From Gemmataceae bacterium (lineage in GTDB: Bacteria; Planctomycetota; Planctomycetia; Gemmatales; Gemmataceae), in assembly GCA_019752375.1 (NCBI GenBank), contig JAIEMG010000037.1:1-64000 (forward strand): a stretch of DNA of 64,000 nucleotides. The letters run 5' to 3'. The stretch's first letter is position 1. Every line of letters starts with the position of its first letter. Shown one piece after another: positions 38,033 to 43,368 of the stretch. The notes beneath the pieces were generated by a model. The model saw nothing but the letters and a program-made list of their open reading frames with translations, was not told the origin of the DNA and ran no database searches. A program made the translations under genes and the position numbers.

Positions 38033-38866
38033 ATGCGTTCGTTTAAGTTGGCCCTGACCGGCCTCTTGTTGGCCCCGGCCGTGTATGCCCAGCAGCCGAT
38101 TCCGCCCATCCAGTCTCCGCCGGCTGCCGCCCAGCCCCCTGCAAATGCCCAGCCGCCCGCGGCGCAACCGCCCGCGGCGAACAACCCAGCCCGGCTCGAC
38201 CAGCTGCTCAATCGCTGGGAGCAGGAAATGAAGAACATTCAGACGCTGACCGCGGACCTGAACCGCACAATGCTCGACAAGACCTACCAGGGCACCGACG
38301 TCTTCACGGGCACTGCCAAGTACATGAAGCCGAACCTGGCAATGCTCGAGCTTCAGAAGAAGAGCAACGCACAGGTCTTCGAAAAGTACATCTGCTCCGG
38401 CACCTTCCTTTATGAGTGGGTGCCCGGCAACAAGGTAATTCGCGCCCACGAGCTGCCGCCGCCCAAGGCCGGCCAGGTCGGCGACGACAACTTCCTGTCG
38501 TTCCTCTTCGGCATGAAGGCTGAAGAAGCAAAGCGCCGCTACGACCTCAAGCTTGTCAAGGAAGACCAGTGGTACGTCTATATTGAGGTTCTGCCGCGCT
38601 TCCCGGCCGACAAGGTCGATTTCCAAAAGGCCCGTCTGGTGTTGAATCAGAGCAACTTCCTGCCGCGCCAGGTCTGGTTCGAGCAGCCCAATGGCAACGA
38701 GATCACCTGGGACATCCCCAAGATCCAGAGCGGCACCCAGATCAAGCGCGAAGACTTCGCGCCGCCCGCCACCTTGCCCCAAGGCTGGAACATTATCCGC
38801 GTTCCCCGCGCCGATGCCGCGGCGCCCGCCGGACAACCGCCGCGCATCGTGCGGCCGCAGCAGTAG
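38033..38866 (+). CDS. Planctomycete TIGR03009-like exported protein
   Basis: The 277-residue protein has a signal peptide (MRSFKLALTGLLLAPAVYAQ), a Pro/Ala/Gln-rich linker and a LolA-like beta domain: 'TADLNRTMLDKTYQGTDVFT', 'GTFLYEWVPGNKVIRAHELP', 'FLSFLFGMKAEEAKRRYDLK' and 'LVLNQSNFLPRQVWFEQPNG'. This matches the planctomycete-specific TIGR03009 group. The fold resembles outer-membrane lipoprotein-sorting proteins, so a carrier function is possible but unproven. A heptamer palindrome array begins 5 bp after the stop. Confidence 0.75.
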   Translation: MRSFKLALTGLLLAPAVYAQQPIPPIQSPPAAAQPPANAQPPAAQPPAANNPARLDQLLNRWEQEMKNIQTLTADLNRTMLDKTYQGTDVFTGTAKYMKPNLAMLELQKKSNAQVFEKYICSGTFLYEWVPGNKVIRAHELPPPKAGQVGDDNFLSFLFGMKAEEAKRRYDLKLVKEDQWYVYIEVLPRFPADKVDFQKARLVLNQSNFLPRQVWFEQPNGNEITWDIPKIQSGTQIKREDFAPPATLPQGWNIIRVPRADAAAPAGQPPRIVRPQQ

Positions 38867-38871
38867 GAAGA

Positions 38872-38983
38872 AGTAGCCAGTAGCCAGGAGTCAGTAGTCA
38901 GTAGCCAGTAGTCAGTAGCCAGTAGGAATTAGCAAGTGGTCAGTACTGACTGCTGACTACTGACTACTGGCTACTGATTCCTG
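38872..38983. repeat. In-register heptamer array folding into a palindrome
   Basis: Sixteen consecutive 7-mers run without a register slip. The first are AGTAGCC/AGTAGTC variants (38872-38927); after degenerate units and a central AGTACTG (38942-38948), the array turns into the complementary form ACTACTG/GCTACTG (38956-38976). The whole can fold into a long hairpin, resembling the short tandem heptamer repeats of cyanobacteria. It lies between the TIGR03009-like gene and the NYN gene. Confidence 0.85.
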
Positions 38984-39069
38984 CGTTTCTGCCTTTCCCC
39001 CTCTCGCGCTGGGCGTTAGATTAGGGGCATTCCGTCCTACGGTCCGAGCATCTGTCCAAAGGATCTTGC

Positions 39070-40101
39070 ATGTCGGCTGACGGCGCGCGCTCTCTTGCGG
39101 TGTTTATTGACTTTGAGAACCTGGCCCTGGGATTCCAGGGCCGACGCGATCGCTTCGATATTGCCCGTGTGCTGGAACGCCTCGTGGAAAAAGGCAAGAT
39201 CGTCGCGAAGAAGGCGTACGCCGACTGGAGCCGCTTCCTTCCCTACACCGGCCCATTGCATGAAGCGGCCATCGAACTGATCGAGATTCCCCGCCGTGCC
39301 GTGAGTGGGAAGAATTCAGCAGACATACGCCTCTGTGTCGATGCGATGGACCTGGCGTATTCCAAGGACCACATCGATACCTTCGTCATCGTCTCCGGCG
39401 ACAGCGATTTCTCGCCGCTGGTGTCGAAGCTCAAGGAACTGGGCAAGCACGTCCTCGGCCTGGGCATGCAGGAATCGACGTCCGACCTGTTGCGCGACAA
39501 TTGCGATGAGTTCATCTACTACGAGGACCTCGGCAAGGCGCCTATCAATGTGCCGGCCCTGGACTCGAAGATCCCGGAAGGCAAGCGCAAGGCATTTGCC
39601 CTGCTCCTGGAATCGATGCTGGCGCTGCGCCGCGAAAACAAGGAAGTCCTCTGGGGCTCGATGATCAAGGACACGATCAAGCGCAAGAAACCGTCCTTCA
39701 ACGAAGCGTATTACGGCTACCGGACGTTCAGCGAACTGCTGGAAGACGCCCAGAAGGAAGGCGTGCTGGAACTGGAGACCGACAAACGCAGCCGAACCTA
39801 TGTGGTGACGCGGTTTGGCGCTGAGCTGCATGGCGGCGGCCCCAGCGCCGCGGCCGCGCCGGAGCCGCGTGCCAAATCGACACGCGGCCGGCGTCGCTCT
39901 TCAGGTAGGGCGCGTGCGCCGGGCGAGCCCCGCACGATCAGCGTTCGACTGGCCAACACCGAGCCGGCCCCTCAGCCCGCGCCGCCCCCGATGGAAGACG
40001 TGCAGGAACGGCGGCAGGAACCGGAGCGCGCGCCCGATCCGCCGCCACGACCTCGTGACGAGGGCGTGTCCGACCGCGACATCCTGTTTTCTTCCGAGTG
40101 A
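39070..40101 (+). CDS. NYN (PIN-like) domain protein with OST-HTH/LOTUS domain
   Basis: Residues ~8-150 are a NYN nuclease domain with acidic residues at D14 ('VFIDFEN'), D85/D91 ('NSADIRLCVDAMD') and D111/D113 ('VSGDSDFSPLV'). Residues ~165-255 resemble an OST-HTH/LOTUS winged helix ('RKAFALLLESMLALRRENKE', 'YGYRTFSELLEDAQKEGVLE'). The last ~90 residues are a disordered Pro/Arg-rich tail. All the expected acidic residues are present, so RNase activity is plausible. LOTUS domains bind RNA or G-quadruplexes in eukaryotes and bacteria. The gene stands alone. Confidence 0.85.
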   Translation: MSADGARSLAVFIDFENLALGFQGRRDRFDIARVLERLVEKGKIVAKKAYADWSRFLPYTGPLHEAAIELIEIPRRAVSGKNSADIRLCVDAMDLAYSKDHIDTFVIVSGDSDFSPLVSKLKELGKHVLGLGMQESTSDLLRDNCDEFIYYEDLGKAPINVPALDSKIPEGKRKAFALLLESMLALRRENKEVLWGSMIKDTIKRKKPSFNEAYYGYRTFSELLEDAQKEGVLELETDKRSRTYVVTRFGAELHGGGPSAAAAPEPRAKSTRGRRRSSGRARAPGEPRTISVRLANTEPAPQPAPPPMEDVQERRQEPERAPDPPPRPRDEGVSDRDILFSSE

Positions 40102-41953: not shown

Positions 41954-42108
41954 ATGCGCCCCTTCCGGTCCAGTCCTGGACGATACCCACCCACGATTGT
42001 CCTTTGTCCCTGGTCCGTCCTCCCTTGTCGGAAGACAAGGGATGCGGCCAATATGTTTTGGGGCGAGGACCTCGGTAATTCACACAAGGGACGAGAGACA
42101 AGGGACCA

Positions 42109-43368
42109 ATGACCATGAGTGATTTTGTGCGTGGCTTGAAGTGTCGGCTGTGTGGCAAGCTCTACGGGAAAGAAGCGCTGAACTTCTGCACCGACGACTT
42201 CGGCCCCCTCGAGGTGGATTACGATTACACCCTCCTTGCCGAGGCGCTGAACCGGCCCAAGATCGAGCTGCGGGCGATGAACATGTGGCGCTACCGCGAG
42301 CTGCTGCCCCTCGACGGGGAGCCTACGGTCGGCCCGCAAGTGGGTGGTACGCCATTGGTCCGCGCCAATCGCCTGGCCAAGGAACTGGGCGTCAAGCACC
42401 TGTGGCTCAAGAACGATGCGGTCAACTTCCCGACGCTCTCCTTCAAGGATCGCGTCGTGTCCGTGGCGCTGAGCAAGGCGCGCGAGTTCGGTTTCAAGAC
42501 CGTAGGCTGCGCCTCGACGGGCAACCTGGCCAACAGTGTCGCCGCCAACGCTGCGGCTGCCGGCCTGGAGAGCTACATCTTCGTGCCCGCCGACCTGGAG
42601 AAGACCAAGATCCTCGGCACCAGCATCTACGGGGCCAAGGTGATCGGCGTGCGCGGCACCTACGACCAGGTGAATCGCCTTTGCACCCAGGTCGCCTTCA
42701 AGTACGGCTGGGCGTTCGTCAACATCAACCTGCGGCCGTTCTATGCCGAAGGTTCCAAGACGGTCGGCTTCGAGATCGCCGAGCAGCTCGGCTGGCGCAC
42801 TCCGAAGCATGTCGTCGTACCGATGGCCGGCGGCAGCCTGATCTGCAAGGTTCAGAAGGCATTCCAGGAGCTGCACAAGATCGGCCTGATCGACGATCCG
42901 TCGTGCAAGATCTACGGTGCGCAGCCAACGGGTTGCAGCCCCATCAGCACAATGGTCAAGAACGGCTGGGAAGCCCACCGGCCCGTGCGCAAGCCGAACA
43001 CGATCGCCAAGTCACTGGCCATCGGCGATCCCGCCGACGGTTTCTTCGCCGCCAAGGTGATCCGCGAGTCGGGCGGCTGGGCGGAGGACGTCACTGATGC
43101 CGAGATCGCCGAGTCGATGGCACTCCTGGGACGCACCGAAGGTATCTTCGCCGAGACCGCCGGCGGCGTGACGCTGGCGGTGACGCGCAAGCTGCTCGAA
43201 CAAGGCCGCATTCCGCGCGACGAGGAAATCGTCCTGTGCATCACCGGCAACGGGCTCAAGACACAGGACGCTGTGGCGGACTTGCTGGAACAGCCGACGG
43301 TGATCGGGCCGTCGCTGGAAGAGTTCTCGCCGCTGGTGGACGGCGTCCGCGAGGCGGCGCTGGTCTAA
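42109..43368 (+). CDS. thrC: Threonine-synthase-like PLP enzyme under SAM riboswitch control
   Basis: The 419-residue protein is a fold-type II PLP enzyme of the threonine synthase family. It has an N-terminal zinc-ribbon-like stretch ('LKCRLCGKLYGKEALNFCTD'), the PLP lysine K113 in 'TLSFKDRVV', the phosphate-binding loop 'CASTGNLANSVAANAAAAG' and a C-terminal 'CITGNGLKTQDA'. Canonical threonine synthase converts O-phosphohomoserine to threonine. Control by a SAM-I riboswitch, and the sulfur-carrier genes downstream, argue that it may instead perform a sulfur replacement on an activated homoserine to give homocysteine. That is inference; sequence alone does not separate the two. The third ATG-proximal start (42115) is an alternative. 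Confidence 0.85.
   Translation: MTMSDFVRGLKCRLCGKLYGKEALNFCTDDFGPLEVDYDYTLLAEALNRPKIELRAMNMWRYRELLPLDGEPTVGPQVGGTPLVRANRLAKELGVKHLWLKNDAVNFPTLSFKDRVVSVALSKAREFGFKTVGCASTGNLANSVAANAAAAGLESYIFVPADLEKTKILGTSIYGAKVIGVRGTYDQVNRLCTQVAFKYGWAFVNINLRPFYAEGSKTVGFEIAEQLGWRTPKHVVVPMAGGSLICKVQKAFQELHKIGLIDDPSCKIYGAQPTGCSPISTMVKNGWEAHRPVRKPNTIAKSLAIGDPADGFFAAKVIRESGGWAEDVTDAEIAESMALLGRTEGIFAETAGGVTLAVTRKLLEQGRIPRDEEIVLCITGNGLKTQDAVADLLEQPTVIGPSLEEFSPLVDGVREAALV

Follow-up and report, generated by a model that had tools for sequence, protein, structure and literature searches.

Tandem heptamers that form a hairpin at the 3' end of a Gemmataceae gene, and their counterparts across bacteria

The window, by which we mean the whole 64,000-nucleotide stretch of Gemmataceae DNA that was analysed, contains between two of its genes an array in which a 7-base word is repeated in tandem and then gives way to its complement. 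Such an array is at once a repeat and a palindrome, and the question that it raises is what kind of element it is, how it came to have this form, and what it might do at the junction between two genes.

The array and its neighbouring genes

The array occupies positions 38872-38983 and comprises sixteen 7-base frames that pass from AGTAGYC to the complementary word by way of a central AGTACTG. Read from 38872, the first ten frames are AGTAGCC, AGTAGCC, AGGAGTC, AGTAGTC, AGTAGCC, AGTAGTC, AGTAGCC, AGTAGGA, ATTAGCA and AGTGGTC; the eleventh is the centre, and it is followed by ACTGCTG, ACTACTG, ACTACTG, GCTACTG and ATTCCTG. At most one mismatch separates eight of the ten left frames from AGTAGYC, and the same holds for four of the five right frames and RCTACTG. 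For period 7, the window's best score is 35, compared to a maximum of 13 in 20 shuffles, and since the tandem unit is exactly 7 bp, the array is an intergenic heptameric simple-sequence repeat.

It is also a hairpin. When positions 38861-38990 are folded as RNA, the predicted free energy is -70.6 kcal/mol (z -8.3), a value that none of 200 shuffled sequences equals, and a DNA fold of the locus gives z -7.1. The RNA stem extends from 38863 to 38984 on the forward strand, which is slightly farther than stated in the first-pass annotation, a sequence-based note that had correctly located the sixteen frames and had recognized both the repeat and the hairpin. In the stricter DNA stem, positions 38885-38924 pair with 38944-38983 around a degenerate centre of 19 bases (38925-38943). 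The palindrome is imperfect and its arms are unequal, with ten AGTAGYC-type heptamers on the left (38872-38941, forward strand) and GRCTACT-type heptamers on the right (38944-38983, forward strand). A search of Rfam with the hairpin returned nothing above the gathering score; the sub-threshold matches are to miRNA precursors, as is typical of any long hairpin.

The array adjoins the 3' end of the upstream gene, and the first-pass annotation had suggested that it could shape the RNA ends of that gene. This gene (38033-38866, forward strand, 277 amino acids) was identified from the list of open reading frames and a gene call, gene calls throughout being made with our own script and not with a standard gene finder, and its TAG stop codon (38864-38866) lies within the base of the hairpin. 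Its product has no Pfam match at E 0.001. The downstream gene (39070-40101, forward strand) encodes an NYN domain (PF01936, E 4e-37) and has a weak OST-HTH match below the cut-off. No T-tract intrinsic terminator, defined as a G+C stem followed by a T tract, is present in 38700-39200. Elsewhere in the window, a heptamer-like stretch at 42003-42115 (AAGGGAC, GAGAGAC, AAGGGAC, CAATGAC) runs into the start codon, at 42109, of a PALP-family gene, and a short perfect hairpin, CCCTTGTC-GGAA-GACAAGGG, lies upstream.

The preservation of heptamer register through the change of strand had been regarded as a special property of this array. The exact complement, GRCTACT, starts 6 bases (modulo 7) off the left frame, and a 1-base rotation of the right unit is needed to keep the register. 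Across 126 hairpins, the offset between left and right registers takes all seven possible values (24, 14, 13, 12, 9, 20 and 34 hairpins), a distribution that departs only mildly from evenness (chi-square p=3e-4). That the register is exact through the hairpin centre is incidental.

Copies in the same genome and in other bacteria

A search of the 8.46 Mb genome, which had been named beforehand as a check, establishes that the array is not confined to a single locus. The pattern AGTAGYCAGTAGYCAGTAG has 50 forward and 39 reverse matches at 12 places, and none when it is read backwards. A shorter pattern with one mismatch allowed gives 139 matches compared to 44 backwards, indicating that weaker copies exist as well. 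All 12 loci fold as hairpins in which AGTAGYC units are followed by a short loop and GRCTACT units. The 11 hairpins for which both neighbours were called all lie between same-strand genes (same-strand junctions make up 60% of intergenic bases), and 10 of these 11 start no more than 10 bases from a stop codon.

Arm lengths differ between loci and between species. The window copy and a copy on contig C184 (locus L037) have part of an unusual centre in common, with a common stretch of 13 bases; loops also appear by eye to be shared between the copies on contigs C310 and C345 and among those on C73, C114 and C189. Among the 126 hairpins, loops with at least 10 common bases are found in 22 of 242 within-genome pairs and in 25 of 7633 between-genome pairs. 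Loops are thus shared far more often within than between genomes, and copies therefore exchange or spread within a genome.

A 580 kb portion of the genome that had not been chosen for arrays contains five arrays of period 7, five of period 9 and one each of periods 6 and 8, a weaker period-7 excess than that of Sediminibacterium described below. A stem score of at least 17 is reached in 57 of its 284 junctions (about 20%), namely 37 of 186 same-strand, 17 of 47 convergent and 3 of 51 divergent junctions. Since so many junctions hold long palindromes, the heptamer hairpins are one class in a palindrome-rich genome.

Other repeat-word palindromes were observed alongside them. The long near-perfect palindromes of this genome form several dispersed families, some of which start with GTAG as REPs do (L044, L049, L167, L173 and others). 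A palindrome made of degenerate heptamers (AATGACG, AAGCCCG, AATGACG, AATCAAG, GACCAAT) is dispersed over at least five junctions of the 580 kb (L169:18974, L171:3126, L178:2425, L179:13113 and L180:5229). Hairpins of 9-base words of the ACCACGGAT-CACACGGAT type lie at L168:4412, L173:3999, L178:5674 and L182:9581 in the planctomycete; similar stems, ACCACAGAGTTACACGGAG, are found in Sediminibacterium (pair 375) and are possibly a second cross-phylum repeat-word palindrome. An 18-unit TTTCGAG heptamer array is present in the window's own genome (L034:10533-10662), and in genome G087 a TTTCGAG heptamer hairpin (L300) stands ahead of the same NYN gene as is found downstream of the window array.

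The array is present in 7 of 95 genomes of the family. Inward polarity is found in 3 of 392 genomes of the phylum, at 30 forward places, and the opposite polarity in none of the 392. Two other family genomes carry many arrays of the reversed word (43 in G020 and 9 in G090), so the words differ between relatives. Of 30 loci, counting that of the window itself, only 5 keep a homologue of the upstream gene, and the relatives therefore provide no true empty or filled site for the window junction. Other long hairpins (stem of at least 17), L300 among them, precede the NYN gene in 9 of 29 cases compared to 23 of 200 random genes of the window's own genome, a comparison whose control is a single genome and on which we do not lean.

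A scan of 84,980 bacterial genomes, one per species, for the AGTAGYC hairpin pattern yielded at least 114 stretches from about ten phyla. Among the matches listed are Planctomycetes, Acidobacteria, Chloroflexi, Bacteroidota, Cyanobacteria, alpha- and gamma-proteobacteria, 'Deltaproteobacteria', Verrucomicrobia, Fibrobacter, Streptomyces and Uhrbacteria; many of these matches come from metagenome bins, and the label of at least one looks wrong. Isolates among the matches listed include Sediminibacterium goheungense, Chryseolinea serpens, Streptomyces rochei, two Mesorhizobium and a Cylindrospermum. An assembly artefact had been named as one possible source of the inverted half of the window array, and the occurrence of the same form in the isolates S. 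goheungense DSM 28323 and C. serpens DSM 24574 makes this unlikely.

Stop codons, strand polarity and turnover of the word

Among the matches listed, 116 hairpins could be placed relative to genes: 73 are in same-strand, 23 in convergent and 9 in divergent junctions, 10 are at an edge and 1 is inside a gene. For the 105 with both neighbours called, the intergenic background against which these counts are to be read is 62% same-strand, 15% convergent and 23% divergent bases. Genes adjacent to an array end in TAG more often than other genes do (53 of 100 compared to 157 of 590, p=5e-7), and for 34 of the 100 the stop codon is a TAG inside a unit. Because 7 is a multiple of 3 plus 1, a heptamer unit that contains a stop closes all three frames.

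The arrays are dense in S. goheungense. In the first 400 kb of its stretches, period 7 accounts for 77 arrays, period 8 for 9 and period 15 for 3, whereas periods 4-6 and 9-13 are unrepresented, and these densities are inflated because the first 20 stretches were mostly chosen for arrays; the 38 arrays of period 14 are largely the period-7 ones. The words include AGTAGTG, GTGAATG, AATAAGG, GATGTCA and CAAGAAA. Of the 65 convergent junctions 21 hold a period-7 array, as do 46 of the 291 same-strand and 7 of the 77 divergent ones; these counts mix array-chosen stretches with others picked for position. Arrays that follow a stop carry a stop codon in sense in 57 of 65 cases and in antisense in 16 of 65, where 31% of all heptamers would do so, and since a few word families dominate, these cases are not independent. 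A sense stop codon is present in 11 of 22 arrays of the planctomycete genome, indicating that such a stop is not required.

The arrays of S. goheungense also have a strand polarity. They are purine-rich on the sense strand in 56 of 65 cases after a stop and in 3 of 26 before a start, and the 5' arm is purine-rich in 40 of 42 heptamer stems compared to 29 of 49 other stems. In same-strand junctions of at least 60 bases, T-tract terminators are found in 1 of 44 with arrays compared to 22 of 163 without (p=0.03). No such avoidance was seen in convergent junctions (3 of 20 compared to 7 of 35, p=0.73). Arrays lie inside called genes at 4 of 67 loci, and some are one-armed.

We compared S. goheungense with a second Sediminibacterium species, using 127 reciprocal best pairs (median protein identity 90%) and 106 conserved junctions. 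Arrays are present in both species at 9 of these junctions, in one species only at 2 and 3, and in neither at 92 (p=3e-9); the corresponding counts for stems are 11, 7, 9 and 79 (p=1e-5). At several shared sites both arms have changed between the species and the pairing has been kept, the paired words being, for example, of GTGAATG and GTGAGTA type, of AATAAGG and CAGAGAA type, and of AGTGAGT and GTGAATG type. All 10 of the array sites that were aligned are filled in both species, and none of the 10 shows an empty-site insertion.

What the hairpins might be

We tentatively favour, with something close to an even chance of being correct, the reading that these are REP-like intercistronic palindromic elements of the 3' end, built from heptamers, that would act as a barrier between the expression of neighbouring genes. 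Position and fold prediction show that, with a purine-rich arm after the upstream stop and the complementary arm before the next gene, the transcript of the junction folds into a long hairpin at the stop. Such a hairpin would most likely obstruct ribosomes, 3'-5' nucleases or RNA polymerase where the upstream message ends, and could in this way separate the expression of same-strand and of convergent neighbours; it is probably a spacer between adjacent genes, or a brake. Shared loops show that copies multiply or exchange within a genome, unequal arms are consistent with changes of length by whole heptamers through slippage, and the Sediminibacterium sites show that one heptamer is replaced by another in both arms while the site and the hairpin persist. 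The 3'-end reading is favoured because sites persist through changes of word, arrays keep close to stop codons, divergent junctions are depleted of them, T-tract terminators are rare at arrays in same-strand junctions, and the dispersed copies have one polarity. It is weakened by the lack of a G-U bias, of a T-tract terminator at the window locus and of avoidance in convergent junctions, and also by those arrays that lie inside genes, are one-armed or are divergent (9 of 105 listed).

Selection on RNA should favour G-U over A-C mismatches, and no such preference is found: 83 same-strand hairpins contain 58 G-U and 67 A-C mismatches, and those of S. goheungense 10 and 18, respectively. These counts weigh against RNA selection and make a DNA-level process a serious rival. 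The hairpins could be a functionless mutational product, an explanation that we consider unlikely though far from negligible, in which 7-base slippage and hairpin-directed repair (quasi-palindrome correction) lengthen and homogenize the arms in non-coding DNA, and junctions carry arrays since genes cannot. Besides the missing G-U bias, the unequal arms, the change of both arms together between species and the lack of mirror order among the units, which independent slippage of each arm would produce, all fit this explanation, and passages of a report on yeast describe the homogenization of arms by template switching (PMC8604942). It does not, however, predict the single polarity, the depletion in divergent junctions or the sites common to two species, and the mirror order expected of arm-to-arm copying is not found. 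Template switching, which the first-pass annotation had suggested, is not supported in the simple form in which one arm is copied from the other. An initial test in which 76 of 187 mirror units were equal (p=0.0002) owed its result to the innermost unit, which the search pattern fixes; without that unit, 25 of 115 mirror-position units (21.7%) are equal compared to 23.8% and 29.0% at one-unit offsets, no better than chance (permutation p=0.49).

The sharing of loops within genomes would also be expected of a mobile palindrome like a REP/REPIN or a MITE, served by a transposase in trans. The AGTAGYC unit holds GTAG, the tag of many REPs, and passages of one study describe GTAG REPs as often supplying a TAG stop (PMC3733652). 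GTAG is present in every AGTAGYC unit and not as a single foot tag. However, many other heptamers lack it, and all 10 compared sites are filled in both species. The REP transposase (PF01797, Y1_Tnp) occurs in all 9 array-bearing genomes, but also in 7 of the 10 that are array-poor. No AGTAG-type array lies near any of the 8 Y1-transposase loci fetched, the only heptamers being two AAAACAT runs in one locus, and the two Y1/RAYT-like loci inspected have flanking palindromes of their own, distinct from the heptamers. A transposase-driven element is less likely, and we regard the mobile palindrome as improbable. Y1/RAYT-like genes with their own flanking palindromes were observed at L273 (contig C124 of the window's genome) and at L255/L270 (S. 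goheungense). We think it more doubtful still that the hairpin is nothing more than a bidirectional intrinsic terminator with a stem that chances to consist of repeats. Its position, its purine-left/pyrimidine-right polarity and the partial avoidance of canonical terminators in same-strand junctions would suit a terminator, and three loops of the window's genome (L035, L040 and L041) appear by eye to hold G+C-rich stems with T runs. Against this, the window locus has no terminator-like site, a T run after the right arm is missing by eye from most copies, and the genome's 11 copies with both neighbours called include no convergent one.

Beyond the 3'-end reading itself, it is a real possibility, if one that may well prove wrong, that these are pan-bacterial 'turnover hairpins': 3'-end palindromes in 7-base words whose site, hairpin and purine/pyrimidine polarity would be conserved in many phyla while both arms switch to a new word together, through a DNA-level process in 7-base steps. 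The mirror form, the fixed polarity and the rewriting of words at conserved sites pose a testable question, namely which process works in 7-base steps, and raise a second, namely what keeps the hairpin in place while its sequence changes. S. goheungense, a cultivable host with dense arrays, makes the question directly approachable.

Intergenic heptamer repeats are already known. The mirror hairpin is apparently undescribed, as are the one polarity that it keeps in many phyla and the change of words at kept sites, since our literature search on the unit and the repeat type, whose coverage included few subscription papers, found no description of a mirror heptamer hairpin. The STRR heptamers of cyanobacteria, with their embedded small dispersed repeats, are tandem heptamers between genes, as here; we know of no mirror arrangement among them. 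REP/GTAG palindromes are linked to Y1 transposases, whereas no such link was found for the heptamer hairpins at 8 Y1 loci. As described in passages of PMC3733652, REP/GTAG palindromes are likewise dispersed, intergenic and near stop codons, with GTAG often giving the TAG stop, and are found in planctomycetes; they differ in having a fixed 20-40 bp, whereas the arms of the heptamer hairpins are tandem units of variable number and sequence. REPs no more than 15 nt from a stop stall ribosomes, according to passages of PMC12306157. The TAACTGA repeats of Beggiatoaceae, Cyanobacteria and Bacteroidetes (MacGregor 2015, PMC4679880) differ, in the passages that describe them, in being direct, with one inverted set in 170, in lying mostly just ahead of start codons and in having no particular RNA structure predicted; they are alike in their 7-base unit, their patchy occurrence across phyla and their all-frame stops, and the same passages report 7-nt indels between strains. 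Over-representation of heptamers in bacterial intergenic DNA is noted, and in the passages concerned not explained, by Rehm et al. (2015, PMC4692102). Those passages discuss the GGGNATC heptameric repeats of Xanthomonas and Nostoc as G-quadruplex arrays, and two-arm mirror hairpins, turnover of the unit at conserved sites and the AGTAGYC family are not described in them. The GGGNATC repeats nevertheless resemble the heptamer hairpins in having a 7-base unit and in lying in intergenic DNA between aligned ORFs, where, according to the same passages, arrays on the coding strand come after stops and those on the non-coding strand come before starts.
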